Source of the DNA: a virus
Length of the DNA stretch: 20,787 nt
Reading direction: 5' to 3' (one strand)
IMG/VR virus record: IMGVR_UViG_3300021963_000791
Location: 1-20,787 of that record
How positions within the stretch are numbered: position 1 is the first letter of the stretch; the number at the start of each line of letters is the position of its first letter. Under the pieces are notes generated by a model. It had not been told where the DNA came from and did not search any database. It saw only the letters and a list, made by a program, of their open reading frames with translations. Positions 7 through 20,475 of the stretch are shown here, one piece after another. The translations under genes were made by a program, and so were the position numbers.

Positions 7-696
7 ATGCCTAGAAAAAGAGTACCTAGAATGTACTTCACAAAAGATACGGAAGATGCTATCATAGAATATAATAAAAGTGAAGACCAAAACATAAAAA
101 ACAAACTATATAGAGATAGAATTCAGCATTCATTTGATAAGTTAGCAGAAATTGTTTATAACAAATGGAAGTTTAGTTATTTTGATGATGACCCACAAGA
201 TGTAATGGCGGAAGTTGTTGCATTTATGGTTGAAAAAATACATATGTACCAAGAAGGTAAGGGAAAAGCATTCTCTTACTTTACTATTGTTGCAAGAAAT
301 TATCTTATCTTAAATAATAATTCAAACTACAAACGATATAAAGATACCGATGTAATGTCATCTTTACCCGATAATTGGGATACTGAAAATAATTGGGCAG
401 AAGAAGTTCGTAATGAAGAACATAGAACTTTCAATAATAGGATGTTAGCATATTGGGATACCCATTTAGAAAATTTCTTTCCAAAGAAAAGAGATATGCA
501 AATTGCAGATGCTGTTTTAGAATTATTCCGTAGAGCAAATTATATAGAAAGTTTCAATAAAAAATCCCTTTATCTACTTATTAGAGAAATGACAGGTCAC
601 CCAACCCATTATATCACCAAAGTTGTTAATAAAATGAAAGAAAAACAAATGGCACTTTATAATGAGTTTGATAGAGAGGGCGATATAAAAATTTAA
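7..696 (+). CDS. gp55: T4 gp55-like late-transcription sigma factor
   Basis: Probable phage RNA polymerase sigma factor for late genes. The N-terminus reads MYFTKDTEDAIIEY (from residue 9), as expected for gp55-like proteins. Residues ~44-112 resemble sigma region 2: a helix ending in EKIHMYQEGKGKAFSYF, then TIVARNYLI, matching the core-binding and -10-recognition segment. Residues ~160-215 (LELFRRANYIESFNKKSLY, then LIREMTGHPTHYITKVVNKM) look like a C-terminal helix-turn-helix. At 229 residues it is longer than T4 gp55 (185). The ATG at 7 fits the basic N-terminus (PRKRVPR); an upstream extension beyond the window edge cannot be excluded. No SD is visible in the six bases present. It is followed four bases later by the carbamoyltransferase. 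In T4 the late sigma needs the sliding clamp and gp33; neither is in this window. Confidence 0.8.
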   Translation: MPRKRVPRMYFTKDTEDAIIEYNKSEDQNIKNKLYRDRIQHSFDKLAEIVYNKWKFSYFDDDPQDVMAEVVAFMVEKIHMYQEGKGKAFSYFTIVARNYLILNNNSNYKRYKDTDVMSSLPDNWDTENNWAEEVRNEEHRTFNNRMLAYWDTHLENFFPKKRDMQIADAVLELFRRANYIESFNKKSLYLLIREMTGHPTHYITKVVNKMKEKQMALYNEFDREGDIKI

Positions 697-2410: not shown

Positions 2411-3180
2411 AATTATACGCATACGGAGATAGTTGGACAGAAGGACAAGGTTGTAGGTTAGAGGATGAATCTAATTTAAAAGATAGAATTATTCTAAAGG
2501 ATTTTAGAAACAAACATTCTTGGCCAATCAAATTAGCTAATAAATTAAATTGTGACCACGAAAACAATGGTTGGAGTGGTAAAGCAAACAACTTAATATT
2601 CAATGAAGTTATTAACGATTTAAGAAATGGAAAAATACATAAAGGCGATTTAGTAGTAATTATGTGGAGTTCTTCTCTAAGAGACCATGTACATTTTTTA
2701 CCAAAGGGAGAATGGATTAGTTGGTCTATAAAAGAGCTTACATTATTACCACATAAATTTTTTGAATCATATAAATTTGGCGATGATAAATACAATTCCT
2801 TTTTAGAAGATTATAAACGATTCTTTTTAGAGAATATGTTTAACCAAAATTATTATAATATTATAAATCAAAATTATATCGTTTTTTTACAAAAAATGTT
2901 AGAGAGTTATGGTGTAAAATGTGTAATGTTAGATGCTTTTGATATGATGGTGCAGGATTTAAATAAAGAAGATGATATAACTCATCTGATAAATAAAAAT
3001 AACTATTGGGGATTCGGAAAGCAAACAATTAGAGATTACTTAGTAAAAGTATCAGATGAATCGGCTTGGGAATATCCACATCCATTTGAAGAAATACCAT
3101 CTAAACATCCAAATGAAAACGGATATAATCTAATAAGTGAAGAACTTTATAATTATATAGTAAAGAATAACATAATTTAA
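2407..3180 (+). CDS. SGNH/GDSL-hydrolase-like protein
   Basis: 257-residue protein with the outline of the SGNH esterase/acyltransferase fold. Block I is YAYGDSWTEG with candidate nucleophile S9. Block II is NNGWSGKANNLI (53-64), matching the family's N-G-x-x-G-x-x-N pattern. Strand LVVIMWSSS (82-90) stands where the block III GxND would be, without a clear Asn-Asp. Block V is HPNENGYNLISEEL with H234. The usual Asp three residues before that His is a Pro (P231), so the catalytic triad is incomplete or uses another acid such as E228 or E229. No signal peptide is seen, so it should act in the cytoplasm. The ATG overlaps the carbamoyltransferase stop by four bases. Known SGNH proteins add or remove acyl groups on carbohydrates, which would fit a partnership with the carbamoyltransferase; that partnership is inference. 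Confidence 0.72.
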   Translation: MKLYAYGDSWTEGQGCRLEDESNLKDRIILKDFRNKHSWPIKLANKLNCDHENNGWSGKANNLIFNEVINDLRNGKIHKGDLVVIMWSSSLRDHVHFLPKGEWISWSIKELTLLPHKFFESYKFGDDKYNSFLEDYKRFFLENMFNQNYYNIINQNYIVFLQKMLESYGVKCVMLDAFDMMVQDLNKEDDITHLINKNNYWGFGKQTIRDYLVKVSDESAWEYPHPFEEIPSKHPNENGYNLISEELYNYIVKNNII

Positions 3181-5366: not shown

Positions 5367-5380
5367 ATTTAATCTTTTTA
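5361..5380 (+). terminator. AT palindrome followed by T-run, possible weak terminator
   Basis: GATTAAATTTAATC is a perfect 14-base palindrome covering the stop codon of the preceding gene. It is followed by CTTTTTA. The stem would be nearly all A-T, so it is a poor intrinsic terminator by itself. Its position between two transcription units and just ahead of a candidate promoter makes a termination or operator role possible. Confidence 0.3.
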
Positions 5381-5395
5381 TATTTATTATTAAAC
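5379..5395 (+). promoter_or_regulatory. Candidate late promoter (ATATTTAT...TAAAC)
   Basis: TATATTTATTATTAAAC lies in the 44-base gap before the gene at 5411, with the ATATTTAT core ending 23 bases before its ATG. The same core occurs in the other four gaps of more than 20 bases. The likely recognising factor is the gp55-like sigma encoded at 7-696. Read on the minus strand it is AATAAATA, close to the T4/cyanophage late -10, so the direction of firing is not settled by sequence alone. Confidence 0.5.
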
Positions 5396-5410
5396 ATACA
5401 CACAATTATT

Positions 5411-5908
5411 ATGGATTCAAAATTATTAGTAGGTCTAATTAAAGAGGTTGTTAAAAGTGAAGTCAAACAACAAGTTAAAGAAGAATTAGCTAAATTAATT
5501 AAATCTGGTGCGGTTACATTAAACTCACAAAGAAAAACAACATCTCCATCGTTGAGAGAGATGACAGAAGTTACTCCTACAAATGTTAGAAAGCAACAGC
5601 CAACTATACAACAAAGACCTCAAATCAAAAAGGAATTTTCAAAAGACCCTATGATTAATGAGATTTTAAATATGACTCAACCATTTACTGCAGAACAAAG
5701 AAAAGAGGGTGCACAGGCTGTGGGAAGTGTATTGGATATGATTAAGCCTGAATTGAGAGTTGATGAGAGTGAGTGGGAAACTATGGATTTTAGAGATGTA
5801 AATGTACCAAGCGGTACACCAACTTTTGAATCAACGGGCGATGGATTACAAGATGCTACAATAAAAGCATTGACAAGAAATTACGCAGATTTAGTTAAAA
5901 GATTTTAA
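5411..5908 (+). CDS. Virion-associated protein of unknown function
   Basis: 165 residues, first gene of the second unit, not recognised. A charged N-terminal helix (1-32, alternating K, E and V) is followed by a disordered, Gln/Thr/Pro-rich linker (40-75) and helices from ~80 to 112 (INEILNMTQPFTAEQRKEGA). The acidic segment ESEWETMDFRDVNVPSG (119-135) precedes a terminal helix ALTRNYADLVKRF. The helix-linker-helix layout with a defined C-terminal tail resembles scaffold or tail-assembly adaptors, but this is only an impression. The start has an AT-only leader without SD, preceded by the candidate promoter at 5379. The gp25-like gene follows two bases after the stop (TAATAATG). Confidence 0.72.
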   Translation: MDSKLLVGLIKEVVKSEVKQQVKEELAKLIKSGAVTLNSQRKTTSPSLREMTEVTPTNVRKQQPTIQQRPQIKKEFSKDPMINEILNMTQPFTAEQRKEGAQAVGSVLDMIKPELRVDESEWETMDFRDVNVPSGTPTFESTGDGLQDATIKALTRNYADLVKRF

Positions 5909-5910
5909 TA

Positions 5911-6345
5911 ATGGCAATAGAGCTTGGTAAAGTTAATGTAACGGATTTAGTTGAAAATGACTATAAAGTATTAGGAATTGGTATAAACCAATCTTCCAAT
6001 AATAACGGTATATTTTCAACAAACTATACGACTTTAACTCAAGCAAAAAATAATTTAATAAATCTGATTCTTACAAAAAAAGGTGAAAGATTGATGCAAC
6101 CGGATTTTGGATGTGATGTTTGGAAAATTTTATTTGAACCAATTGATGATAATATAGAAGTTTCAATAGAAAATTCTATAATAAAAGCGGTTTCTATTTG
6201 GTTGCCTTATTTAAATATAAATGAAATAATATTTGATTATGATGAAAATGATATAGATACTAATAGAATTGCATTAGATATAAAATTCTCATTAACATCT
6301 AACCCAGCATTATCAGAATCAATACAAATAAATGTAGAAAAATAA
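5911..6345 (+). CDS. gp25: gp25-like baseplate wedge protein
   Basis: 144 residues, matching the small gp25/gpW wedge family (T4 gp25 is 132). The family signature is clear: TLTQAKNNLINLILTKKGER (41-60), then LMQPDFGCDVWKILFEP (61-77), including the Pro-x-Phe-Gly-Cys turn and the E-P ending of the conserved EPR-like motif (Arg replaced by Ile). In T4 it forms the wedge core with gp6 and gp53 and contacts the sheath initiator. The next gene is the gp6-like one, one base downstream, the conserved wedge order also seen in P2 (W then J). Confidence 0.88.
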   Translation: MAIELGKVNVTDLVENDYKVLGIGINQSSNNNGIFSTNYTTLTQAKNNLINLILTKKGERLMQPDFGCDVWKILFEPIDDNIEVSIENSIIKAVSIWLPYLNINEIIFDYDENDIDTNRIALDIKFSLTSNPALSESIQINVEK

Positions 6346-6346
6346 A

Positions 6347-8371
6347 ATGGCAATAAATCCAATTAAAAAAACATTTGGGACTAAAAGAACATTAAACTAT
6401 TTGGGAAAGGATTTTGATTCTTTCAAACAAAATTTAATAGATTATACCAAAACGTATTTCCCAAACACATATTCAGATTTTAATGAAGCATCTCCGGGTA
6501 TGGTATTCATCGAACAAGCAGCTGCTTTGGGTGATGTGTTATCATTCTATCAGGATACCCAATTAAAAGAATCAATGTTAGCACATGCTACAGAACGTAA
6601 AAACGTTTTAGCATTGGCACAATCTATGGGGTATAAACCAAAGGTAACATCTCCAGCTATAACTACATTAAATGTTTATCAACTAATTCCATCAAAGGGA
6701 GCACCTAACTATGAACCAAATGAATTATACTATCTTAAAATAAAAGATGGTATGGAAATAGAATCATCTACAAATAATTTAATTACGTTTAGAACAACTG
6801 ATAGTGTTGATTTTTCAAATCCAACTGATAGAGAAATAGATGTATATGAAAGAGATGCAAATGGCGTACCTTTACAATATTTAATAACAAAAAAAGTAAA
6901 AGTTATATCGGCTAGAGAAGTATCTACTCAAATTAATTTTGGAGTATATGAAGAATATCCTACAATTACTTTAAGTGATAGTGATATAATTCAAATAACA
7001 TCTGTAACATCCGATAATGGTACTATTAAATGGTATGAAGTACCATATTTAGCACAAGAAAGTATTTTTGTAGAAACGGCTAATATTGAAACTAATAATG
7101 GTGAATTAAGTTTATCATCATCAACTGTTCCATATATTTTAGAAGTACAAAAAGTACCATATAGATTTTCTGTTAAAGTAAATTCTGATAACACAATGGA
7201 TTTACAATTTGGAAGCGGTGATACTTCATTGGATGATGGAAAAATATTACCGAATACAAAAAATGTAGGATTGGGATTAGCAAATTCAGTTAATAGATTG
7301 AATCAGGGTATTGACCCATCTAATTTTTTAAAAACAAATACATTTGGTGTGGTGCCAGTTGGTAAAACATTGGAAATAAAATATTTAGTAGGGGGTGGTA
7401 TTAAATCTAATATTAATCAAGGTGATTTAGTTTCCATTCGTAAAATAGAGTTTGAAGAAGATTTATTATCATTTAATTCTAATGCGGAATTAATCTCATA
7501 CAATGCTACAAAAGGAACTGTTGCAGTAGAAAATTTAGAATCTGCTGTTGGAGGTAGAGGTTCTGAATCAATTGAAGAAATAAGACAAAATGCTTTAGCA
7601 ATGTTTGGTTCTCAAAATAGAGCAGTTACCAAACAAGATTATATGGTTAGAGCATTATCTATGTCAGAACGATATGGTAGTGTTGCTAAAGTATATGTAT
7701 CTCCTGATGGCGAGATTGATAATAATTCACCATCATCTATTTTATCATCACCAAATAACATAGCAGAGTTTGTAGGAATAGTTGAAGGATTAAAAGATAA
7801 GCCAAAGCAAGAAATACAAAAAGAATTAGTTAAATATCTTACACAAAAGAAAACATCGATAGCAGAAGTTAATAACCCATTTGCAATTAATATGTATGTA
7901 TTAGGATATGATGTTGATAAAAAACTTACTCAAATAAATCAAGCAGTTAAACAAAATCTTAAAACTTATTTAGGTGAATATAGAATGATGACTGATGCCG
8001 TTAATATCATAGATGGATTTATTGTAAATATTGGAGTTGATTTTGAAATAATTTCCTATTCAAATTTTAATAAGAGAGAAGTTCTTGCAAATTGTTTAAC
8101 CGAAATACAAAACTATTTTGATATAGATAATTGGGCATTCAATAAACCAATAAACATTTCGGAAATAGAATTAATATTAGCAAACGTAGAAGGAGTAATG
8201 AGTGTACCATCTGTTAAAATTTCAAATCTATGTGGAGGTGATGGTAATTATTCTCCAAATAGATATAATATAGAACAAGCAACAAAAGGAAAGATTGTCT
8301 ACCCTTCCTTAGACCCTTGTATCTTCGAAATTAAATATCCAAACAAAGACATTAAAGGGAGGGCTTTATAA
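6347..8371 (+). CDS. gp6: gp6-like baseplate wedge protein (baseplate J family)
   Basis: 674 residues, very close to T4 gp6 (660). The N-terminus (LNYLGKDFDSFKQNLIDYTK, then FNEASPGMVFIEQAAALGD and QDTQLKESMLAHATER) is typical of gp6, which begins with the helical segment that pairs in the wedge. Residues ~408-440 (SIEEIRQNALAMFGSQNRAV, TKQDYMVRAL) are the hallmark of baseplate J proteins. The C-terminal part (EIQNYFDIDNWAFNKPINIS, then ELILANVEGVMSV) matches the end of the family. In T4, gp6 dimers form the continuous ring of the baseplate. The gene ends within AAAGGGAGGG, which is also the only good ribosome binding site seen here and serves the next gene, whose ATG overlaps this stop. Confidence 0.88.
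   Translation: MAINPIKKTFGTKRTLNYLGKDFDSFKQNLIDYTKTYFPNTYSDFNEASPGMVFIEQAAALGDVLSFYQDTQLKESMLAHATERKNVLALAQSMGYKPKVTSPAITTLNVYQLIPSKGAPNYEPNELYYLKIKDGMEIESSTNNLITFRTTDSVDFSNPTDREIDVYERDANGVPLQYLITKKVKVISAREVSTQINFGVYEEYPTITLSDSDIIQITSVTSDNGTIKWYEVPYLAQESIFVETANIETNNGELSLSSSTVPYILEVQKVPYRFSVKVNSDNTMDLQFGSGDTSLDDGKILPNTKNVGLGLANSVNRLNQGIDPSNFLKTNTFGVVPVGKTLEIKYLVGGGIKSNINQGDLVSIRKIEFEEDLLSFNSNAELISYNATKGTVAVENLESAVGGRGSESIEEIRQNALAMFGSQNRAVTKQDYMVRALSMSERYGSVAKVYVSPDGEIDNNSPSSILSSPNNIAEFVGIVEGLKDKPKQEIQKELVKYLTQKKTSIAEVNNPFAINMYVLGYDVDKKLTQINQAVKQNLKTYLGEYRMMTDAVNIIDGFIVNIGVDFEIISYSNFNKREVLANCLTEIQNYFDIDNWAFNKPINISEIELILANVEGVMSVPSVKISNLCGGDGNYSPNRYNIEQATKGKIVYPSLDPCIFEIKYPNKDIKGRAL
8355..8363 (+). 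promoter_or_regulatory. Strong Shine-Dalgarno sequence, unusual for this window
   Basis: AAGGGAGGG ends seven bases before the ATG at 8371 and lies inside the 3' end of the gp6-like gene, encoding part of its C-terminal IKGRAL. Purine-rich anti-SD complementarity of this strength is absent before every other start in the window, so it may be coding coincidence or may set a higher level for the DNRLRE protein. Confidence 0.5.
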
Positions 8372-9438
8372 TGCATATATTTTATACATCATCGTATGAC
8401 GCGAGTATATATCTTCAACAACCTGAACAAAACGCAGGTAGAGATGAGATATTAGAAGTAGGTAAACTTTATTATGGTTCTACTATGGATGTTGCTAGAA
8501 CTTTAATAAAGTTTAATGTTTCAAATTTAGAAACTGGCAGCGGATGGAAAGCTTATTTAAATCTTAAATCAGCTAATTCAGAAGAAATACCATTAGAATA
8601 TACTATTTACGCAAATGCAATTTCTCAAAGTTGGACTATGGGAACTGGCACTAAATTTGACAATATAACATCAGATGGAGTTAGTTGGTATTATAAAAAC
8701 GGAACTAATAAATGGATGGATTATGTGGCAATACCAAATTCATATGTGAGTGGTTCTGATACGGGTTCTATATCAAATGGAGGTGGTGGTACTTGGTACA
8801 CTGCATCTATGGCATCCCAATCTTTTAGTAATGAACCGGATGATATTAGAATGGATGTTACTAATATTGTAAATTTATGGGTTAGCGGTAGTTTAAACAA
8901 TAATGGATTTATAATTCACCATCATACATCTGCGTCTGTTGATTCAAATGATTATGGCGTTCTTAAATTCTTTTCAAAAGAAACTAATACAATATATCAA
9001 CCAAAATTAGAAATAGTTTGGAATGATACATCTATTAATACTGGCAGTTTAGCACCAACAACGGGTTCAGCACAGGATGGATATAAAGTCATATTAACCA
9101 ATCTTAAAAATAAATATATTAAAGATAGTAAGGTAAAAATAAGAATAAAAGGTAGAGATATGTACCCATTGAAATCATTTGGTACTACATTTGAATACGA
9201 CCAAACTAAATATTTACCATCTACTACTTATTATCAATTAGAAGATTATGTAACATCGGAAGTAATATATCCATTTGGAATATATACACAATTAAGTTGT
9301 GATAGTACTTCTAATTACTTTAATATGAATTTAAACACACTTCCAGCTAATAGAACATATAAATTAAAAATAAAAATAGTAGAAGGTGGTATATCAACTA
9401 TTATTGATGATAAATTAATATTTGAAATAGTAGAATAA
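8371..9438 (+). CDS. DNRLRE-domain-like beta-rich baseplate/fibre protein
   Basis: 355 residues. Residues ~1-220 resemble the DNRLRE/CBM96-type beta-sandwich: strand DASIYL (10-15), DVARTLIKFNVSNL (40-53), the conserved SQSWTMGTGT followed by DGVSWYY (85-108), a spacer rich in G, S and T (125-150), then MDVTNIVNLWVSG with NNGFIIHHH, and closing FFSKETNTIYQPKLEIVW. Such domains are known in bacterial surface proteins and some carbohydrate-binding modules. Residues ~225-355 form a separate Ig-like or beta domain (KVILTNLKNKYIKDSKVKIR onward, ending DDKLIFEIVE). No signal peptide is present. Directly after the gp6-like gene, it is probably a peripheral baseplate protein that may contact host glycans; function is inferred. 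Both ends overlap neighbours by one base (TAATG). Confidence 0.7.
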   Translation: MHIFYTSSYDASIYLQQPEQNAGRDEILEVGKLYYGSTMDVARTLIKFNVSNLETGSGWKAYLNLKSANSEEIPLEYTIYANAISQSWTMGTGTKFDNITSDGVSWYYKNGTNKWMDYVAIPNSYVSGSDTGSISNGGGGTWYTASMASQSFSNEPDDIRMDVTNIVNLWVSGSLNNNGFIIHHHTSASVDSNDYGVLKFFSKETNTIYQPKLEIVWNDTSINTGSLAPTTGSAQDGYKVILTNLKNKYIKDSKVKIRIKGRDMYPLKSFGTTFEYDQTKYLPSTTYYQLEDYVTSEVIYPFGIYTQLSCDSTSNYFNMNLNTLPANRTYKLKIKIVEGGISTIIDDKLIFEIVE

Positions 9439-10577
9439 TGACAGGATTAGAAGCAATTGCACAAAAATTAGAAGAAAAAAGACAATCCGATTTAGAAAAC
9501 ATATTATCTATATCGGGTTCACAAGCTATTGCTAAAAATGAATATGGAGTTACGATTGTTAATGAAAATAATGTAGCATCATCATTGGTATTTAAAGAAC
9601 TAACAAAGCCAAAATACGATAATGATGAACTTATAAAAGCTATTGACTTAAATATCAAAGAATTAAAGCCTGATATTCCTAAACCAAATTTAGATTTAGT
9701 TCCTAAATTAATATATGATGCCGAAGTTGTAACTAATGAAGATTTAAGAAAGCAAGTTTCAAATTTAACAACAGAAATTTCTACTCTTAATACTACTATA
9801 ACCGATTTAAAAGCACAAGTTCAAAGCGAAATAAATAATAAATTAGCAATTGAACAATCAAATGATGCATTAGTTAATCAGTTAAATACATTAACACAAA
9901 CGATTGATGATTTTGCATTACAAATACAAAATTCATTACAAAAATCAGTAGAAGAAGGAATTCTTAGAGCATCATTACAATCACAAAATACCGGATTTAA
10001 AGCACAAATTCAGGCATTGATTAAACAAATTGACTCATTGAATTCAATTATAGAAGGTTTACAATCGCAATTGGGAGCAGTTCAAAATCAACAAGCCATT
10101 GTACAAGGTACACAAGCTCAAGCTATGGCTGCTGGAGCAGATGTAATAAATGATGTAGCAATTGTTAAATTAGAACCAAAAGAAGATGCAAACGCTTTAG
10201 ATTTATGGGCTAGATTTAGTGCTAATGGCGATAACCAATGGAAAAATGGAAAAAAATTATCAATAACAAATAATGATAAACAACCAATAACAGTAGTAAT
10301 TACAACAACCAATCCAAAAAATAGAGAATTTTATAAAATACCCACAAAGAGTTTTACAATTGATGCAGGGCAACAAAAGGATGTAGAATTTACATTAGAT
10401 TCAAATGCAGTTGGTGATTTAGATTCTCGTAAAAAAGGAGGTTGGTTTAATGGAAAATCGCATTCTGCTGAATATAAAGATGGTTCTTTGAAAGTAACAA
10501 TAACACGTTCTGATGGAACGGCTAAATCAAAAGAATACACCACAGGCTTTGGTAAATATCATCCAGATTCATACTAA
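9438..10577 (+). CDS. Long coiled-coil structural protein with C-terminal beta domain
   Basis: 379 residues, family not recognised. After a helical start (TGLEAIAQKLEEKRQSDLEN) and a Pro-containing linker (70-88), residues ~98-225 form a long coiled coil rich in Q, L, I, N and S with heptad-like spacing (LRKQVSNLTTEISTLNTTIT through SIIEGLQSQLGAVQNQQAIV), suggesting a rod of roughly 130 residues. An Ala/Gln hinge (QAQAMAAGA) leads to a beta domain (~240-379) with KLSITNNDKQPITVVITTTN and KSFTIDAGQQKDVEFTL, resembling an Ig-like fold, ending in a Gly/Lys-rich segment. Likely a trimeric rod or short fibre on the baseplate. It begins by TAATG overlap and ends in tandem stops (TAATAA). Confidence 0.72.
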   Translation: MTGLEAIAQKLEEKRQSDLENILSISGSQAIAKNEYGVTIVNENNVASSLVFKELTKPKYDNDELIKAIDLNIKELKPDIPKPNLDLVPKLIYDAEVVTNEDLRKQVSNLTTEISTLNTTITDLKAQVQSEINNKLAIEQSNDALVNQLNTLTQTIDDFALQIQNSLQKSVEEGILRASLQSQNTGFKAQIQALIKQIDSLNSIIEGLQSQLGAVQNQQAIVQGTQAQAMAAGADVINDVAIVKLEPKEDANALDLWARFSANGDNQWKNGKKLSITNNDKQPITVVITTTNPKNREFYKIPTKSFTIDAGQQKDVEFTLDSNAVGDLDSRKKGGWFNGKSHSAEYKDGSLKVTITRSDGTAKSKEYTTGFGKYHPDSY

Positions 10578-10582
10578 TAAAA

Positions 10583-11944
10583 ATGAGCATTAAGAAATAT
10601 ACAAATATAGATAATATAAATAATAATTCAGAAAACGTTGGACAATTTTTGCAATCTGAAGATTTATTTATTGTAAATCAAAATCAAATAGAAGATACTG
10701 ATTTTGGAGATTGTAGATATGATGTAATGGAGGTATCGGTGTATGATATTAATAATAATTTACTTCCTCATAAATCTGGCAAAAATGTTGCTTATATTAA
10801 AACGGGCGATATTAAAAACTATATGTACAACCTTACTAATAAGGGTGGGCAAAAAGAATTGGCAATTGATATTGAAAAATTATTAAATGATTTAGGATTT
10901 ACAAATGGTATTCTTAAAGTTAATATCAACTTTGTTAGAAATAGAGTAGGTAGCGATAATGAATTGACTAAAGTTTGGATACATGAAATATCACCATCTA
11001 GAACAGAAATTAGAATATTACCATTAAAAACTAAAAATGATAATATTAATAATATTACTAACAAAGAATTTAAAAATGTAAATAATTTAAATAAAGATTT
11101 TAAATATTATAAAAAAAATATATTAGATTCTTTGGATGGAATTGAAAATACTTATTTAACTTCTATTGCCAATGCAATGACTAATAAATTTGGCAACGAT
11201 TTTGAATCTATTTTACGAAAAGATTTTGGATTATCCGATTTTAATGGATTTAAAAAAAGAGTATTTTCAGATTTTAAAACGAGCATAAACTATTGGCTTA
11301 ATAATAAAGAGTATATTATATCTCAATCGAATTATGGTAAAAAATCTATAATTAGATTTGAAGATTGTGAGCAATATGATTTTCAATTTTTATTAAATGA
11401 AATTCCAAATATTTTAAGAGATTGTATAGATTATCATACTAAAACTTTAAAAAGACGAGATATTACAATTAAAGCTTTACCTAAAGAATTTGAAATTACA
11501 ACAATCAAAAAACAAACACAAGATTTAGTTGGAAGTATTTCTATAAAAGAAGAAAAAATTAGAAATATATACAATCCACAAAATGTTAATTTGAATGCAA
11601 GAGGAGTTGGCGGATATAATCCACCAAAAGATATAGTAGTTCCAATAGAACTACCTACTGTTCCAATAAAAACAGAACCATTGCCAATCAAACCATTGCC
11701 AATAGAAGAAACTCCAATTAAAGTAATAAAACCAACTCCGGAGCCAGAACCTAAACCAATAGTTAAAAAAGAACCAATAATTGAAGAGCCAACAAAGCCA
11801 ATCGAAGATATTATACCAACACCATCATATGGAGGTGGAGGTGGTGGTGGTGGATACACCGGAGGTGGATATGAGGATGGTCGTGGTGGATTAGGAAGAG
11901 AACCATATCTCTATGAAATCAATCAAAGAGAAAATATACAATAG
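10583..11944 (+). CDS. Baseplate-associated protein with Pro-rich and Gly-rich tail
   Basis: 453 residues, family not recognised. The N-terminal domain (1-150) is beta-rich, with DVMEVSVYDINNNLL (48-62), INFVRNRVGSDNELTKVWI (115-133) and a distinctive EISPSRTEIRILPLKT (135-150). The middle (~170-310) is helical and Asn/Lys/Phe-rich. From ~346 to 416 it is a long Pro-rich linker of repeated P-I-x-P/E-P units, followed by eight consecutive glycines and a second GGG run (418-430). The final ~20 residues are charged. The linker should be extended and flexible, as in tethers. The next protein has a similar Gly-rich/Pro-rich stretch near its N-terminus. It is the last gene of the second unit. Confidence 0.72.
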   Translation: MSIKKYTNIDNINNNSENVGQFLQSEDLFIVNQNQIEDTDFGDCRYDVMEVSVYDINNNLLPHKSGKNVAYIKTGDIKNYMYNLTNKGGQKELAIDIEKLLNDLGFTNGILKVNINFVRNRVGSDNELTKVWIHEISPSRTEIRILPLKTKNDNINNITNKEFKNVNNLNKDFKYYKKNILDSLDGIENTYLTSIANAMTNKFGNDFESILRKDFGLSDFNGFKKRVFSDFKTSINYWLNNKEYIISQSNYGKKSIIRFEDCEQYDFQFLLNEIPNILRDCIDYHTKTLKRRDITIKALPKEFEITTIKKQTQDLVGSISIKEEKIRNIYNPQNVNLNARGVGGYNPPKDIVVPIELPTVPIKTEPLPIKPLPIEETPIKVIKPTPEPEPKPIVKKEPIIEEPTKPIEDIIPTPSYGGGGGGGGYTGGGYEDGRGGLGREPYLYEINQRENIQ

Positions 11945-11960
11945 GATATTTATAATAAAC
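11945..11960 (+). promoter_or_regulatory. Candidate late promoter before the giant gene
   Basis: GATATTTATAATAAAC occupies most of the 25-base gap between the stop at 11944 and the GTG at 11970; the ATATTTAT core ends 16 bases before the GTG. It matches the motif at 5379 and 20459 including the AAAC tail. On the minus strand it contains a perfect TATAAATA. Confidence 0.5.
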
Positions 11961-11969
11961 TAACAAAGA

Positions 11970-14900
11970 GTGGTAAAAGCATTAGAAAATATTTTTGGAG
12001 GAGAATCTACATTAACTTCATATAATGGTAATGGTTCGTATGAAGCGTTTCCATCTATGGATTTAGGCGGAGGTGGTGGTGGCGCCGGCGGCGGATATAC
12101 TCCACCTGTTACACCAAATCCAATATATGTACCACCAACATATTCAGAACCAATATTAAATAATATTATTAAAATAGTATTATCATCTAATACTGGTGAA
12201 GTTGAATTTTTAGAAAATGGAATTTCAAAAGGATATGGCGTAAATAACACTATAACATATTCACCATCTACTTCATTTAATAGTTCTAAAAAATATGAAG
12301 TAATTAAGAATGGATACAAATCAAATCAGTATTATGAAGTTTCTATAAAAAAAACATATCAAAATATTGATTATAACTATTCAAACAACTATGTAAATAA
12401 TGGGAGTTATAATGTAGCCGATGCATTTGGATTAAATACATATCAAAATTCAAATATATTCAATTGGAATTATAATATTCAACCAACTGTAACCGCAATT
12501 GATTACCAATATTCGGAGATACTAAGTGTACAAGAATATACATTACAATCGGATGGTAGTTATATACCAACTAATACTAATACATTTAATTTTGGTACAA
12601 TTCCTTTAAATTTTAATTTAATTGGCAATAATATACCAATATCCGATAATCCAATATTAGATGAACCAATTATAATTAATAATCCACCACCATTACCAAG
12701 AGTAGTAGAATATGAAATAGCGTTTTCATCAAATTTTAGACAAGAACTATCAGAAAATGTAGTACTTTCTTATACAATTTTTAAAAATGATGGTAGTGTA
12801 TCCGATACTGGTAATTTAAATTTATCAAATAGTAATATTATCAGAGAAATTGATAGTAGTAATTTAAATGGTAGAGTTGATTTTAAAATAGAATATGTAA
12901 ATAAACCAACTGAATATAGTTTAGTAAATATATATCAAACAACAAACACTGCTAAATTAGCAGAAGCACAGCCTGATTCTATTGATTTTGCAAAATGGAA
13001 TACACAAAATTCTGCATTTTCACTTCCAGCTCAACAATTGCAATCCGGTGTATCTATTGTAGTATTTTTTGAAAAAGAAATAAATGTAGCTAGACCTATA
13101 ATAAGTTTAGATACTACACAATATAGTGTACAAGTTAAAGATTCAGATTTAGAAAAAGAAATAAATATTCCATTCAATACATCTAATGCGGATAATGTAA
13201 GAGTTTATATTGATGGAAAATCGGATACAACTTTAGTTTCTGCACAAAATGGATTTGTAAAATTATATTTCCAAAAAGACTTTAGTGAAGTATATGGAAC
13301 TAAAAAAATAGTTTTAGTAGCCGAAAGTTCTCGTTATGGAACGGGTGATTCGGTTACCGCTTTAGTTACATTTATAGCTGTAAATGATTTCCCATCTATT
13401 ACCGAAATAACATATCCAACATCTTTGGATATACCATCGTTTTCGGATTTTAATATAGATTTAAATTATGAATACATAACATTTGCATCATCTACAATAG
13501 ATGTAGATTTAAAAGCAAAAGATGGTAGTAGAATATCTTTATTTAAAAACTTAATACCAAACGGAAATATTTCTATTAATATAAAGACATTAAGGGAAAG
13601 ATTTTCAAATTGGAATGGAAGCGATAACGTTACTTTAATATTTAAACCATTTAATAGAAGTGGTTCTGAAGAATTAATTGGTAATGAATATGAAGTAAAG
13701 ACCAATTTAATGATTCCATCTATTCAATTAGATGAGAATATATTTTCGACAGCTATATTTGAAGCATTTTCAAACATACTAAGTGTAGTTGAACCTGAAA
13801 AAGAAAGTAAGTATTTAACCCATCTTGCTAATTTTGATAACAACGAACAAATTTTAATTTCTACTTGGGAAAATGATAATTGGACATTATCATCTAAAAA
13901 AGAAGATAATTTAGGTAATATTTTAATTGAAAATGAAGTAGATAGTATTTTATTAAAATTATACGAACCAATTCCATCCAATGTTATTCCAAATTCTACA
14001 TTTTGGATTACAAAATTAATGGCAAACCCATTAATTGAAACAATAATTTTAAATGAACAATCGAACATAACATGTCCTCCAATAAAAGGACCAAATTTTA
14101 GTTTAGATTTAGATTATGTAAAAGGACAATCTACAAATTTTGAATCTTTAGATAATATAATTCTTAGTGGTTCGATTTCATCTAATCAATTAGTTACCAC
14201 ATATTTAAGTTCATCCATAATTAATACAGATTCTTTAAATATAGAATATGTAAGTGGTTCTATTTATTTATGGCATAATTTTGTTCATTTTAGTTCAGCA
14301 AAAGAAAGAGTTGATAATTTTATTTATAAAGTTCAACTTATTGAAGTTTATGAAAATGCCATATCGGCTAGTAATGCTTCTATATCTTCTTCTGTTTTAA
14401 ACGATGTACAGGAAAGAGAAAGACAACTGATAAAGAAAAATGAATTATTAACTGGCTTTGACGGCTTTGAAAATTTCTTATATACATCATCTTCTTTATA
14501 CACAACAAACAACAATAATTCTATTACTTGGCCATACAATAATGGAGTTAGAGTTGAATCCACTTCTCCAACAATATCAAACACATCAAATACGGGTTGG
14601 TATGATAATTTAATTACCTTAGCAGAAGAGTTTGATATAGAGAATTCAAATTGGGTTCAAAATAATATACCACAATATATTTTAAATAATTCTGAAAACG
14701 AAAGTTTATTATTATTTTTATCAATGATTGGACATCATTTTGATAATATATACTTCCACACTAAATCGATAGAAAAAAGTAGAGGATTAGGATATAAATC
14801 TAAAGATGGCATTTCTGATAAATTATTATTTGATGTTTTAAAATCATTCAATTGGGATGCAAAAAATCTTGCAGCAGATGAACAATTGTGGGAATATGCA

Positions 14901-17252
14901 TTTGGATTAAACAATGATGGAAGTCAAAAATATAAATCATACGATTCAACTGGCAAATTAATAAATACAACTTCAGCTAAACAAAGAACATATGAGGTTT
15001 GGAGAAGAATTGCAAATAACTTACCATATCTTTTAAAACATAAGGGAACAAGAAAGGGTGTATATGCTTTATTGAGTTGTTATGGAATACCATCATCAAA
15101 TCTTTCAATTTTAGAATTTGGAGGACCAGAAGTAACTGAAACTACTAAGGGTAAATTGGTAATGGATAATCTTACTACTGCTCTTAAATTTAATAATGGT
15201 GCATCTATTGAAATGGATTGGAAAGATACCAATAAAAATAGAAAGCCAAATACAATTGAATTATTTATTAAGCCAGCCGAAGAATCTAATTTTAGATTAT
15301 TATCGGGAAGTAATTGGAATGTAGAAGTTAGCGCATCTACAACTTCATCTTATGGCAATGTTGTATTTAATTATAGTGGTTCTAATAAAATATCATCCAC
15401 ATTATTACCAATATTTAATAATAAATTCTTTGGTATATCTGTAAGTAAAGGTACTTCAAATGAAATCAAACTTGCTGTAAGGCAATCTGATAAAGAAAAA
15501 ACAATATTTGAAGAATCTATAACTACAAGTTCAATTGTAACTAATTGGGAAAATGATTCCAAATTAAAAATTGGTGGAAACTATATTGGAAGTTTAGATG
15601 AATTCCGATTATGGTCAGAAGTTTTAGATAATGAAAGATTCTATGAGCACGTTTCATTTCCTGAAATGATAAATGGTAATAGTATTTCATCATCAACTAA
15701 TGATTTATATTTCCGTTTGGATTTTGAATATCCAAAAAATTTAAATACAACATCTTCATTAATAAATGTTGATACAAACATATATTTTAGTAGTAGTATT
15801 AGTAGAAATGATTTAGAAAGAGGTATTGTTCCAATTATTTCAGGTTCAACCATATTATCGGAAAATGTAAAAGCATTATATTCCGCTAGTGCAAATGGAT
15901 TTACATCAATAAATTCATACCCACACAACTTTGAAGCAATTGATAGAAGTATAGTATTAGAAATACCTGATTTAGGCGCCGGTAGATATTCTACAAATAA
16001 AGTTAGATTTGAATCACAAGAATTAATTTCAGATTTATCTTCAAAAAATAGAGCAACTAAAAAAGCATTTGACCAATCGCCAACCGATTCAAATAGAGTT
16101 GGTTTATTCTTTTCTCCTACAAAAGAATTGAATATTGATATTGCTAAATCTTTAGGTGGATTAAATTTAGATAACTATATTGGTGACCCATCCGATGAAT
16201 CCAAATCCAATTATAGTAGATTGGATTCTTTAAGAAATTACTATTTTCAAAGATTCGATGGTAGAGATATTTACGCATATATTAATTTAATCAAACTATA
16301 TGAGAAATCTATGTTTGAAGATATTAAGAATATGTTGCCGGCAAGAGTTAAAGCAACTACGGGTTTATTAATCGAACCACATATCTTAGAAAGAAGTAAA
16401 GTAGCAAGAAAAAAACCTTCAGCAGATGAATATCAAAAAGAAACATCTATACATTTTTCCGATACTACAATATTTTTAGCAGAAAATCAGCAATATGAAA
16501 CAACTATTAATGGTGATTTATCTGAAAATTTATTTGCTGAAAATAATCAGTATGATGGTACAATATACACTGCTTCAATAGATAAAACATTTGCAGAATC
16601 ATATCAATTAAATAGTTTAATCAATCCAAATGATAATTTGAATCAAATAGCAGAATCGTTTCAAAACGATGTTACAATTGATGCTGGATTAGGCGAAGCT
16701 AGTATTTTAACTGAAATTGATATTTATGATGTAAACACATTCGTTGGACAAAGTGATTATGAGACTGTTGGGTTTGGTATATATGCACAAAACGGACATG
16801 CAATCAGAACATATTTTGATAAAAATGGTAGACGTGTTAAAGAAAGAATTAAAGTAGATTTAATCAAAGAACAAAAGCAAAGAGATGTAGTTGCATATAA
16901 TATAACGATAAATGGTAAAGGTGACCCACGTGGTGGTTATCATTTAACATCTTCTATTTATTATGAAACAAAATTAAATATTCAACCATATTCCGGTTCA
17001 AAAGTAATTAATGCTGGAACAGGAAGTATAGTTGAAGTAACAAAAGTAAACGGATATTTACCAACACATTATAGAAATACTTCCGATTTAACAAAAGGAT
17101 TAGAGAATTCTTTTTATAGAGGTTCAAAAAATACGGCTGCAACTACTTTAGATGGTAGTTCTCCTATTGAAACATTTGTAACTAATCCAAATACGTTAAG
17201 AGTTAATAAGACTGGAAGAGATAGTTCTGAACCAATTTTGGAAGTTGAGTAA
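11970..17252 (+). CDS. Giant baseplate protein: gpI/gp7-like core, LamG-like domain, 19-residue repeats
   Basis: 1760 residues, by far the largest gene. The in-frame stop at 11961 forces a start at or after 11964, so GTG 11970 is chosen; the first in-frame ATG would remove ~29 residues. N-terminal Gly-rich/Pro-rich linker (~32-60), then beta-rich repeats with likely Ig-like domains (~60-590). Residues ~785-840 are helical. Residues ~880-1050 (EEFDIENSNWVQNNIPQYIL, later RRIANNLPYLLKHKGTRKGV, YALLSCYGIP) recall the tail protein I region in which a disc-like helical core carries K-G-T-x-x-G. Residues ~1094-1225 (TIELFIKPAEE to GSLDEFRLWSEVLDNERF) look like a LamG/concanavalin-type sandwich. Five 19-residue repeats follow at 1485-1579. 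The order gp25, gp6, this protein parallels W-J-I of P2 and 25-6-7 of T4, suggesting a gp7-like wedge role. T4 gp7 is 1032 residues; the excess may be host-binding domains. Confidence 0.7.
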   Translation: MVKALENIFGGESTLTSYNGNGSYEAFPSMDLGGGGGGAGGGYTPPVTPNPIYVPPTYSEPILNNIIKIVLSSNTGEVEFLENGISKGYGVNNTITYSPSTSFNSSKKYEVIKNGYKSNQYYEVSIKKTYQNIDYNYSNNYVNNGSYNVADAFGLNTYQNSNIFNWNYNIQPTVTAIDYQYSEILSVQEYTLQSDGSYIPTNTNTFNFGTIPLNFNLIGNNIPISDNPILDEPIIINNPPPLPRVVEYEIAFSSNFRQELSENVVLSYTIFKNDGSVSDTGNLNLSNSNIIREIDSSNLNGRVDFKIEYVNKPTEYSLVNIYQTTNTAKLAEAQPDSIDFAKWNTQNSAFSLPAQQLQSGVSIVVFFEKEINVARPIISLDTTQYSVQVKDSDLEKEINIPFNTSNADNVRVYIDGKSDTTLVSAQNGFVKLYFQKDFSEVYGTKKIVLVAESSRYGTGDSVTALVTFIAVNDFPSITEITYPTSLDIPSFSDFNIDLNYEYITFASSTIDVDLKAKDGSRISLFKNLIPNGNISINIKTLRERFSNWNGSDNVTLIFKPFNRSGSEELIGNEYEVKTNLMIPSIQLDENIFSTAIFEAFSNILSVVEPEKESKYLTHLANFDNNEQILISTWENDNWTLSSKKEDNLGNILIENEVDSILLKLYEPIPSNVIPNSTFWITKLMANPLIETIILNEQSNITCPPIKGPNFSLDLDYVKGQSTNFESLDNIILSGSISSNQLVTTYLSSSIINTDSLNIEYVSGSIYLWHNFVHFSSAKERVDNFIYKVQLIEVYENAISASNASISSSVLNDVQERERQLIKKNELLTGFDGFENFLYTSSSLYTTNNNNSITWPYNNGVRVESTSPTISNTSNTGWYDNLITLAEEFDIENSNWVQNNIPQYILNNSENESLLLFLSMIGHHFDNIYFHTKSIEKSRGLGYKSKDGISDKLLFDVLKSFNWDAKNLAADEQLWEYAFGLNNDGSQKYKSYDSTGKLINTTSAKQRTYEVWRRIANNLPYLLKHKGTRKGVYALLSCYGIPSSNLSILEFGGPEVTETTKGKLVMDNLTTALKFNNGASIEMDWKDTNKNRKPNTIELFIKPAEESNFRLLSGSNWNVEVSASTTSSYGNVVFNYSGSNKISSTLLPIFNNKFFGISVSKGTSNEIKLAVRQSDKEKTIFEESITTSSIVTNWENDSKLKIGGNYIGSLDEFRLWSEVLDNERFYEHVSFPEMINGNSISSSTNDLYFRLDFEYPKNLNTTSSLINVDTNIYFSSSISRNDLERGIVPIISGSTILSENVKALYSASANGFTSINSYPHNFEAIDRSIVLEIPDLGAGRYSTNKVRFESQELISDLSSKNRATKKAFDQSPTDSNRVGLFFSPTKELNIDIAKSLGGLNLDNYIGDPSDESKSNYSRLDSLRNYYFQRFDGRDIYAYINLIKLYEKSMFEDIKNMLPARVKATTGLLIEPHILERSKVARKKPSADEYQKETSIHFSDTTIFLAENQQYETTINGDLSENLFAENNQYDGTIYTASIDKTFAESYQLNSLINPNDNLNQIAESFQNDVTIDAGLGEASILTEIDIYDVNTFVGQSDYETVGFGIYAQNGHAIRTYFDKNGRRVKERIKVDLIKEQKQRDVVAYNITINGKGDPRGGYHLTSSIYYETKLNIQPYSGSKVINAGTGSIVEVTKVNGYLPTHYRNTSDLTKGLENSFYRGSKNTAATTLDGSSPIETFVTNPNTLRVNKTGRDSSEPILEVE
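16422..16706 (+). repeat. Five tandem 19-codon repeats in the giant protein
   Basis: Units start at 16422, 16479, 16536, 16593 and 16650, exactly 57 bases apart. Each begins Ala-Glu (Ala-Asp in the first). Ala1, Gln5 and Ile10 are invariant in all five units, Glu2 in four. Positions 6-9 read like Y-E/D-x-T, and the last residue is L, F or I. The DNA copies are diverged, so this is protein-level conservation, not recent duplication. The pattern suits a repeating beta structure in a fibre-like shaft. Confidence 0.85.
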
Positions 17253-17267
17253 TAATTTTTATAAAAT

Positions 17268-17281
17268 GTATATTTATTAAC
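17268..17281 (+). promoter_or_regulatory. Candidate late promoter before 17302
   Basis: GTATATTTATTAAC lies in the 49-base gap after the tandem stops of the giant gene (TAATAA at 17250). The core ends 24 bases before the ATG at 17302. It lacks the extra spacing of the other copies, so the AAC follows directly. A 10-base AT palindrome, TTTTATAAAA, precedes it. Confidence 0.5.
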
Positions 17282-17301
17282 AAATGATATAATACAAAAC
17301 T

Positions 17302-17925
17302 ATGGGATATTTAAGTAATACAGAATTAACAGTTGATGCAATCCTTACAAAAAAGGGTAGAGAAAAACTGGCAGCTGGACAAGGATTAAACATTACTCAA
17401 TTTGCATTAGCAGATGATGAGATTGATTACTCTCTTTATGAGCCAGCACATCCATTGGGTTCTTCATACTATGATGCAGCAATTAAAAATATGCCTGTAT
17501 TAGAAGCTAACCCCGATGAAACACAAGTAATGAAATACAAATTAGTAACATTGCCAAAAAATACAACTCGTATTCCGGTTGTTGAATTTGGTGTTCCTAA
17601 TATTGCAGTAAATCAAAGAAGTGGTGAAGTTTCATTATCACCAACAACATCTCCAGCCGGAAATAGAAGAATGGGATATACCATTATCCTTTCTAATAAA
17701 AGCGCAGGTGATATTGTAGGAGAAGGAGTTAGTGCTGATGTTGGTACTGTGCCAGTATTTATTGGTGATGATGTATCAGCAACCGCAGCAATCGCAAAAG
17801 GATTATCATTTAAATTTATTCCAAACCCATCTTTAACATCGACTATCAGAACAACGATAACTGTTTATGGTAACGAAACGGGTGGTTCACAAACAATTCC
17901 AGTAACCGTAACATACGTTCAATAA
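17302..17925 (+). CDS. Phage structural protein, LTKKGRE-type N-terminus
   Basis: 207 residues. The N-terminal domain carries ELTVDAILTKKGREKLAAGQ followed by ITQFALADDEIDYSLYEPAH and PLGSSYYDAAIKNMPVLEA (up to ~69), a pattern I associate with conserved uncharacterised virion proteins of T4-like environmental phages; I cannot name the family. Residues ~85-207 are all beta, with PKNTTRIPVVEFG and SLTSTIRTTITVYGNE, resembling an Ig-like domain that ends in IPVTVTYVQ. It probably forms a tail or baseplate decoration. First gene of a two-gene unit; the leader is A/T-rich with no SD. Confidence 0.75.
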   Translation: MGYLSNTELTVDAILTKKGREKLAAGQGLNITQFALADDEIDYSLYEPAHPLGSSYYDAAIKNMPVLEANPDETQVMKYKLVTLPKNTTRIPVVEFGVPNIAVNQRSGEVSLSPTTSPAGNRRMGYTIILSNKSAGDIVGEGVSADVGTVPVFIGDDVSATAAIAKGLSFKFIPNPSLTSTIRTTITVYGNETGGSQTIPVTVTYVQ

Positions 17926-17933
17926 TATAAACT

Positions 17934-19193
17934 ATGGCATTAATTAGAGATAATAGAGGACAACTCTTAGCAAGTAATTTATCACAATACTTAGCAGGCG
18001 CAGCAAATACAGCAGGCACTCCAATAGATACTAACGAAATGGTTAGAATCTTAAACCAATTTTTGGGCGAAGGAGAGCAAATCAGCTCCGACTTAACAAC
18101 TGTAACGAATGGTATTTACAAAAAATTTGGTGCTATTGATAAAGTAACTAATAGAACCGAAATCGTAACTTCAGGAATTTGGAGTGGTGAAACGGGTTCA
18201 TTGGATGTAAATTCTACATACACATCATCTGCACAAATTGCAAGTGTAAGTGGTAAATATTATATTAATGTTTATAACGGATTAACAGCATCTGATGCAT
18301 CTGAAGTTCAATTTTCAATTGCATATGGTGATAAAGATGGATATGGTGCACCAACTTTACAACAAACTGATTCATCTACAATGCCAACCAAAGCTACTTA
18401 TAATCAATATGCAAACGTATTATTAGAAAGTGGTGATTCTTATTTTAGTGTGTATAGTGGTACAACCGCTGGTGGTTTGGATTTAAGAAATTTCTACGCA
18501 ATCAATATTAATAGAGCTAGATATAAAGAAAGATTAGACCCAGGTAACATCTCAATTGATTTATCGGGTTCATTAAGAAGTATTACTTTAATTGATGATA
18601 GTGGTGGAACTGATGAAAATGTAACAACTGCAGGAAGAGTTTACAACTTAGTTAGTGGTTCATTAAATATTGGTTCGGCATTAACCGCATCAATAAATAG
18701 TGCAACCGCATCAAACGGACAGGGATGGGGATTATTCTACCCTGATATGGGAATTATCTTACTAAACCCAGCAGCATTGAGTTCATCTGTTGATGTTAAA
18801 TTAGCACCGGCATATGGTTCACAAAAAGATGTATATCATAACATTGCTTTAAGTGGTTCTACATATAGTGCAAACTCTGGTTCAGTAATGTTATTACGTT
18901 CTTTAGGTGGTGGTAATGATTTCCAAGTTCGTAGAACTGAAAACGTTTCTACATCTCATTATTTCGTAAGAGCAAACAATAGAGAATTTAACTTCTCAAA
19001 CAATCCAACATTTGTAACAGGTTCAACTGGCCAATTTGTACAATCATTATTTGAAAGAGACCCGCATGTTTATATTACAACCGTAGGTTTATATGATGAT
19101 GCAAATGAATTATTAGCAGTAGCTAAAACTTCTAAACCAATTGAAAAATCATTTGATAAAGAAGTAGCAATCAAAGTTAAATTAGATTTTTAA
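17934..19193 (+). CDS. Tail/baseplate structural protein with conserved GLYDD C-terminal motif
   Basis: 419 residues, Ser/Thr/Gly/Asn-rich and beta-rich as expected of virion proteins. It starts MALIRDNRGQLLASNLSQYL, followed by a helical region with EMVRILNQFLGEGEQIS (35-51). The central part (90-340) has many short strands, including RARYKERLDPGNISIDLSGS. Residues ~345-360 read VRANNREFNFSNNPTF. The last 40 residues (YITTVGLYDDANELLAVAKT and on to KVKLDF) align without gaps to the end of the protein at 19276-20457. The gene starts eight bases after the previous stop and is followed by the window's only strong terminator. A role in tail or baseplate structure is inferred from composition and context; the exact part is unknown. 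Confidence 0.78.
   Translation: MALIRDNRGQLLASNLSQYLAGAANTAGTPIDTNEMVRILNQFLGEGEQISSDLTTVTNGIYKKFGAIDKVTNRTEIVTSGIWSGETGSLDVNSTYTSSAQIASVSGKYYINVYNGLTASDASEVQFSIAYGDKDGYGAPTLQQTDSSTMPTKATYNQYANVLLESGDSYFSVYSGTTAGGLDLRNFYAININRARYKERLDPGNISIDLSGSLRSITLIDDSGGTDENVTTAGRVYNLVSGSLNIGSALTASINSATASNGQGWGLFYPDMGIILLNPAALSSSVDVKLAPAYGSQKDVYHNIALSGSTYSANSGSVMLLRSLGGGNDFQVRRTENVSTSHYFVRANNREFNFSNNPTFVTGSTGQFVQSLFERDPHVYITTVGLYDDANELLAVAKTSKPIEKSFDKEVAIKVKLDF
19071..19193 (+). repeat. C-terminal 40-residue module, copy 1
   Basis: Encodes YITTVGLYDD to the C-terminus. Paired with 20335-20457; 19 of 40 residues are identical with no gap, including ITT, GLYDD, AVAK and PI. Confidence 0.85.
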
Positions 19194-19220
19194 AAATAAA
19201 GAGTAACGTTAAATATAACT

Positions 19221-19250
19221 AAAGACCCAACCTTAAAAAGTTGGGTTTTT
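19221..19250 (+). terminator. Rho-independent terminator
   Basis: ACCCAAC pairs with GTTGGGT around an eight-base loop (CTTAAAAA). The outer AAAG can pair with TTTT (one G-U), and the transcript ends in TTTTTG TTT. This is a clear GC-containing stem with T-run in an AT-rich gap, 28 bases after the stop at 19193. The minus-strand reading has a much poorer T-run, so it serves the plus strand. Confidence 0.88.
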
Positions 19251-19259
19251 GTTTAATAA

Positions 19260-19273
19260 GATATTTATATACG
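19260..19273 (+). promoter_or_regulatory. Candidate late promoter just after the terminator
   Basis: GATATTTATATACG, with the core ending only seven bases before the ATG at 19276. If the core is a -10 element, the transcript would start at or within a base or two of the ATG, giving a leaderless message. On the minus strand it holds TATAAATA. Confidence 0.45.
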
Positions 19274-19275
19274 AT

Positions 19276-20457
19276 ATGTTAAAAAGAATACCAAAATCGG
19301 ATATTAGTATTAGGCCATTTAAGGCTTATAAAGAGTGGAGTTTTGATGAAACTTCTACCGAAGTTACTTTATTGGAAGCTTCTGCATCTTCAACGGATAT
19401 ATCTGGTCAATTTCCTAAGAATTCAATATATGGTCAATTAAGAGCGCAATTTTATAATGGTAATGGAGATAATCCATTTACAAGAACAGGCAATAAATCA
19501 TCAACATATTCAAATAAACGATTAACATCTGAAAGATATCTAAGCGGTTCGGCAAAAGTGATTTCCATTCCACAAATTTATGTTGGAGAAGGAATAAAAA
19601 AAGGTTCAGTTATTTTAACAGATAATAAAAGTTTATCAACGGAATTTTCTTATACCGATGACTCGTATGGTAATTTGCAAGATTATAGAGATAAAATTTA
19701 TGCTTCTAGAATCGATGTAGAAAATGAAATATTTAATTTTACCGATTTATCAGAATATGCGTATAGTGCTTCATTAGAAACATACGTTGGTGCATTTGAT
19801 ATACAAAATGGAACATTGGATATTATATACAATGGTCGTCCGCAACCAACGATACAATTGATTAGTTTAGATATTGAATCGGGCATTGCAATTGCAGAAA
19901 ATATATCTTTTTTACCACAAGAATCGCAGGGTATTAAAATTGGTAATGTATTTTATAATCAGGGATTAATAGTAATAACTAGAGATGTAGCTGAGAAATT
20001 ACAAAATCAATGGCAGTTGGATTATAAATCTACAAAAACAATTTACGAAAATGAATATTTATTAATAGTAAATGAAGATGAATTCAATGTTTCACAAAAT
20101 CCAACTGCAATAGTAGAAGTAGGAAAAGAAACGGAATTTATAACTGGTTCGGATGGTAAAATATATAAAACAACCACAAACCCAGGTGTTAAATATATTA
20201 AAAAATTAACAGCATTAGAAAACGGAAATATATTAGATTATAGATTTAGTGGTTCGGTAGGAAATAAAAAAGCAGGATTTGAACACTATGACTTAAGTGG
20301 TTCAATAGATAGTACTGGTTCATTCTTAGCACCTATGATTACAACTATTGGTTTATATGATGATAATTGTGATTTAGTAGCAGTTGCTAAATTACCACAA
20401 CCAATAAAATCAGAACCTGATATACCTGTAAACTTTATTGTACGTTTCGATACTTAA
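19276..20457 (+). CDS. Tail/baseplate structural protein, paralogous C-terminus
   Basis: 393 residues from ATG 19276 (MLKRIPKSDISIRPFKAYKEW). A longer reading from TTG 19249 would begin inside the terminator's T-run and is rejected. The protein is beta-rich with many G, S, T and N residues: SDISIRPFKAYKEWSFDE (9-26), ISIPQIYVGEGIKKGSVILT (95-114), FDIQNGTLDIIYNGRPQP (175-192) and GKIYKTTTNPGVKYIKKLTA (295-314). The last 40 residues (MITTIGLYDDNCDLVAVAK onward) mirror the end of the preceding protein. No enzyme motif is seen. Virion structural role inferred; likely a homologous or sequentially assembled partner of the 17934-19193 product. It is transcribed separately, since a terminator and a candidate promoter lie between the two. 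Confidence 0.78.
   Translation: MLKRIPKSDISIRPFKAYKEWSFDETSTEVTLLEASASSTDISGQFPKNSIYGQLRAQFYNGNGDNPFTRTGNKSSTYSNKRLTSERYLSGSAKVISIPQIYVGEGIKKGSVILTDNKSLSTEFSYTDDSYGNLQDYRDKIYASRIDVENEIFNFTDLSEYAYSASLETYVGAFDIQNGTLDIIYNGRPQPTIQLISLDIESGIAIAENISFLPQESQGIKIGNVFYNQGLIVITRDVAEKLQNQWQLDYKSTKTIYENEYLLIVNEDEFNVSQNPTAIVEVGKETEFITGSDGKIYKTTTNPGVKYIKKLTALENGNILDYRFSGSVGNKKAGFEHYDLSGSIDSTGSFLAPMITTIGLYDDNCDLVAVAKLPQPIKSEPDIPVNFIVRFDT
20335..20457 (+). repeat. C-terminal 40-residue module, copy 2
   Basis: Encodes MITTIGLYDD to the C-terminus; partner of 19071-19193. The second halves differ more (SEPDIPVNF in place of KSFDKEVAI), so the GLYDD half is the conserved part. Confidence 0.85.
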
Positions 20458-20458
20458 T

Positions 20459-20475
20459 TTATATTTATACTAAAC
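20459..20475 (+). promoter_or_regulatory. Candidate late promoter before 20486
   Basis: TTATATTTATACTAAAC begins two bases after the stop of the preceding gene, with the core ending 17 bases before the ATG at 20486. It closely matches the 5379 copy, including the TAAAC tail at the same spacing. Confidence 0.5.

Follow-up and report, generated by a model that had tools for sequence, protein, structure and literature searches.

What starts transcription of the gene blocks in this virus record, and which protein would read the signal? The window, as we call the whole 20,787-base stretch analysed here (20.8 kb), has every gene on the plus strand. These comprise genes for a sigma-like protein and a NolO-like carbamoyltransferase, the gp25 and gp6 baseplate wedge genes and a set of unassigned genes, which are probably mostly structural. 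In the initial annotation, a short, AT-rich core, ATATTTAT, was taken to mark transcription units and to be a candidate late promoter for the sigma-type protein encoded at 7-696. The features on which the analysis turns are the following.

7..696, plus strand: gene for a divergent sigma-70-family protein of 229 aa, candidate late sigma (structure matches, Pfam Sigma70_r2, phrog_234)
5380..5387, plus strand: ATATTTAT core, predicted late promoter ahead of the gp25/gp6 baseplate unit, whose genes begin at 5411; in 41/41 distinct relatives
11946..11953, plus strand: ATATTTAT core, predicted late promoter for the gene of 1760 aa that starts with GTG at 11970; in 4/4 relatives
17270..17277, plus strand: ATATTTAT core, predicted late promoter of gene 17302; in 10/10 relatives
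19226..19251, plus strand: intrinsic terminator, CCCAAC-GTTGGG plus T-run, closing the upstream unit (read from the sequence)
19261..19268, plus strand: ATATTTAT core, predicted late promoter of gene 19276; in 6/6 relatives
20461..20468, plus strand: ATATTTAT core, predicted late promoter of gene 20486; in 5/5 relatives

The GTG start of the 1760-aa gene is likewise conserved in relatives, and the relatives that keep the core ahead of gene 17302 include immuto, an annotated Flavobacterium phage of 160 kb, and Mel-JY01, with a downstream protein 43% identical. The stem-loop and T-run at 19226..19251 are retained in six relatives with a changed stem sequence. Ahead of gene 19276, both the 7-nt distance from core to ATG and the N-terminus (MLKRIPKSDIS or MLKQIPKSDIS) are constant in six relatives; from this spacing a leaderless or near-leaderless mRNA is predicted. 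In the window, the NolO-like gene and a second gene (701-3180) separate the sigma gene from gene 3182. Immuto is without both at that place and has a predicted late box ahead of its 3182 homologue.

The core stands out by position and strand

As had been claimed, each of the five gaps of more than 20 bases holds the motif on the sense strand 7-24 bases ahead of the next start (23, 16, 24, 7 and 17 bases from its end, in order), and gaps of at most eight bases hold none. Over the whole 20,787-base window, forward copies start at 5380, 11946, 16720, 17270, 19261, 20055 and 20461, and five of these seven fall in the five gaps, which make up 228 of the 20,787 bases (binomial P ∼3e-9). The chance that all five gaps would carry a sense-strand core is ∼4e-10, obtained by multiplying the chance probabilities of the single gaps, with intergenic composition modelled to first order. 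Counting both strands of the window showed no overall enrichment of ATATTTAT (9 seen, 11 expected); the signal in the window is its position and strand, not its total count. Two in-gene cores had also been reported, of which the one at 20055 is exact, whereas the one placed near 16729 in fact lies at 16720-16727. The accompanying TAAAC tail is indeed present 2-3 bases past the core in three gaps, but as a specificity element it proved to be a weak tendency only. Across lineages, TAAAC lay 1-4 bases from the core in 9/67 gaps of the window clade and in 3/42, 2/26 and 1/17 gaps of the others, with 1-3% in control positions; this modest enrichment mostly reflects an A-rich leader, and we rejected the tail as a second element.

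We then gathered the sequences upstream of all window genes from relatives. The core was found in 66/66 distinct orthologous gaps, whereas ∼500 sequences taken from upstream of abutting genes held essentially none (one variant). Gene 3182, which abuts its upstream gene in the window and has no box there, has one in 63/86 relatives with a preceding gap versus 1/25 without. None of these counts is phylogenetically independent. To look for words without supervision, 8-mers were counted in co-directional gaps of three lineages, following the suggestion in the initial annotation that gaps of full genomes and relatives be set against a composition-matched expectation. The outcome was strongly positive: ATATTTAT occurred in 83/302 gaps of the window clade (9.5 expected; reverse strand 3), 17/72 in immuto (1.4 expected; reverse 1) and 18/81 in Mel-JY01 (1.8 expected; reverse 1), and was the top or a near-top word de novo in all three. 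In immuto-like contigs CTATTTAT is in use as well (31 sites versus 3 reverse), and the family-wide form of the box is [A/C]TATTTAT. Its median distance from core start to start codon is 29, 30 and 44 bases in the three lineages. The distant 484-kb relative LR756508 has the box once in 16 gaps, too few for a count. As a control, the same counting in the late region of T4 (the region of middle genes was uninformative) ranked TATAAATA first (7 copies against 0.36 expected), with no enrichment of ATATTTAT.

These positions bear on a reading in which the box is an RNA or translation-initiation element of the leader rather than a promoter. It does sit 7-40 bases ahead of start codons, as such an element might. 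However, genes internal to units are translated and have no box, its spacing to the start varies among lineages, it ends 7 bases before the ATG of gene 19276, and it co-occurs with terminators, so that we regard this reading as highly improbable.

Two probable promoter classes occupy different parts of the immuto map

Aligned sites revealed a second, host-type class, with TTG ∼20 bases ahead of TATATTTG (window clade, Mel-JY01) or TATATTTAG (immuto clade), which resembles the Bacteroidetes -33/-7 promoter (PMC6847099). In contrast to this class with its clear upstream element, aligned sites of the ATATTTAT class showed no conserved -33 or other upstream element. In immuto, nearly every host-type site falls at 60-77 kb, where it precedes a small, probably early gene, and late boxes are concentrated at 78-154 kb. 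There, [A/C]TATTTAT precedes the terminase (terL), portal, PhoH, tail sheath, tube, hub and tape-measure genes, and some sites precede genes that are not obviously late. Among orthologues in three genomes, the box stood at 17/43 late genes versus 0/18 replication genes (Fisher P 0.001); it was not found directly ahead of the major capsid and protease genes, and in two genomes primase is preceded by a host-type box. The motif thus tracks the starts of units, as had been proposed, and in the annotated relative it tracks structural genes.

Could the box simply be a variant host sigma-A promoter, with a -7 element TAnnTTTG and no phage sigma? The likeness is real: TATATTTAT resembles TAHHTTTG, the A-n-n-TTT core resembles the -7 box of the Bacteroidetes sigma-A promoter (TTTG / TAHHTTTG), and promoters of Flavobacterium johnsoniae have a weak -33 element (PMC6847099). 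Nonetheless, the box has no -33 TTTG, its first T is dispensable, and the closing G that is near-invariant in host promoters (PMC6847099) is an A here. Moreover, genuine host-type sites (-33 TTG plus TATATTTG or TATATTTAG) are a class of their own and lie elsewhere on the map, and we judge a host promoter variant unlikely.

Two further observations concern the host-type class. Immuto-clade sites end in TATATTTAG-GTAT, not TATATTTG, possibly a host-lineage difference in the -7 box. Mel-JY01, recorded as a phage of the cyanobacterium Microcystis, carries Bacteroidota-type early promoters, TTG-N20-TATATTTG, and it may really infect a Bacteroidota bacterium that was present in a mixed culture.

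The box resembles T4-type late promoters but differs in sequence

A T4-type late promoter is active late, depends on gp55 and starts RNA ∼6 bases downstream. The known boxes are TATAAATA in T4, NATAAATA in S-PM2 and CTAAATA in Aeh1 (PMC1524935, PMC2984593). Like the T4 late promoter, the present box is one 8-base -10-like element with no -35 and an AT-rich start region (PMC1524935, PMC2984593, PMC2988020), and like it stands ahead of structural genes with a variable first position. Aeh1 likewise has C replacing A at one position, which CTATTTAT parallels. The arrangement of a single -10-like box without -35 ahead of late genes is therefore that of the T4 type, whereas the T4-type consensus NATAAATA is not followed: sense-strand TATAAATA is not enriched in clade gaps and was discarded as their motif (5/302, versus 83/302 for ATATTTAT). 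Compared with NATAAATA of S-PM2, NATATTTAT is identical except for the central two bases, AA → TT. If the boxes are aligned in this way, the change falls on -9/-8, the two bases that are flipped into gp55 pockets in the structure from T4 (PMC7892883). As the box would act in the manner of T4 late promoters and yet misses the T4 consensus, it would be a new variant; judged by sequence, it is best read as a one-box late promoter of known kind and new sequence. A literature search, with subscription papers outside its scope, found no late promoter described for T4-like phages of Flavobacterium or other Bacteroidota.

As ATATTTAT partly overlaps the reverse complement of TATAAATA, the sites might instead be T4-type late promoters on the opposite strand that make antisense RNA, and this reverse complement, TATTTATA, is present in 49/302 clade gaps. 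Yet the conserved unit is ATATTTAT, which does not need the extra A of TATTTATA, and the T4 word in sense is rare in the same gaps. The box also follows terminators, a short distance ahead of the downstream start and in constant orientation relative to that gene. Of the readings considered, we hold antisense promoters to be the least probable.

A candidate sigma factor for the late box

The protein encoded at 7-696 had no direct profile match. Among 49 members of its family, however, 21 matched Pfam Sigma70_r2, with weak scores (best E 0.0063), and six matched the late-sigma profile phrog_234; in each of two overlapping searches, >500 stretches that carry the sigma gene were matched. In the immuto genome, phrog_234 has one match only, the 7-696 homologue (E 0.008), and none in Mel-JY01, the 238-kb relative or the window protein. 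Alignment to T4 gp55 with hhalign gave E 0.006 at a low probability of 6%. The structure, predicted from an input with the immuto and Mel-JY01 rows left out, matched mostly sigma factors in Foldseek, including sigma-E region 2 on a -10 element and T4 gp55 (7d7c, prob 0.82), with E-values >0.01. With T4 gp55 (phrog_234) the protein shares a sigma region 2 fold and weak collinear similarity, but it differs in an extra conserved C-terminal helical domain (residues ∼135-229) that has no reliable structural match, and in having no recognisable clamp-binding tail. Region 4 was considered for this C-terminus and rejected, as Foldseek of 135-229 gave only insignificant helical or helix-turn-helix matches. 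By profile and predicted structure, we conclude that 7-696 encodes a divergent sigma factor with a region-2 fold, in agreement with the sigma-type protein noted at the outset. The weak sequence scores and these Foldseek E-values count against the assignment. By analogy with T4 (PMC2988020, PMC7892883), this sigma probably reads the box.

In T4, late transcription needs the replication clamp. Pfam gp45 and beta-clamp models, of which the gp45 models do detect T4 as a positive control, gave no match in immuto, Mel-JY01 or the 238-kb contig, and by eye no clamp-binding epitope or tail was recognised in the sigma protein. Clamp-loader genes are included in the Mel-JY01 annotation, and these phages may have a diverged clamp. 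That late transcription here proceeds through a gp55-like sigma carrying an extra C-terminal domain and does not need the replication clamp, replication coupling being lost or different, seems to us a doubtful though conceivable extension.

Overall, we favour a model, at a probability of roughly 0.78, in which the late promoters of a large clade of Bacteroidota T4-like myoviruses have one -10-like box only, ATATTTAT, probably read by a phage sigma; Bacteroidota are probably the hosts of this group. Counting against the model are the shortness and high A+T content of the core, the late genes that have no box directly ahead of them, the immuto sites at genes that are not obviously late, and the weak scores of the sigma assignment. 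The sigma from 7-696 would bind host RNA polymerase, the resulting complex would melt and read the box without a -33 element, RNA would start on an A ∼5-6 bases downstream, and such starts would switch on blocks of virion genes. For a very large, mostly uncultured group of aquatic phages, this lets transcription be mapped with host-type and late promoters as distinct classes, and puts forward a sigma factor and promoter as a pair that is testable in a cultured phage. The T4 late box is similar to the -10 box of E. coli. Our data suggest that here the late box has been altered at the two bases read by the gp55 pockets and is now like the Bacteroidota -7 box.
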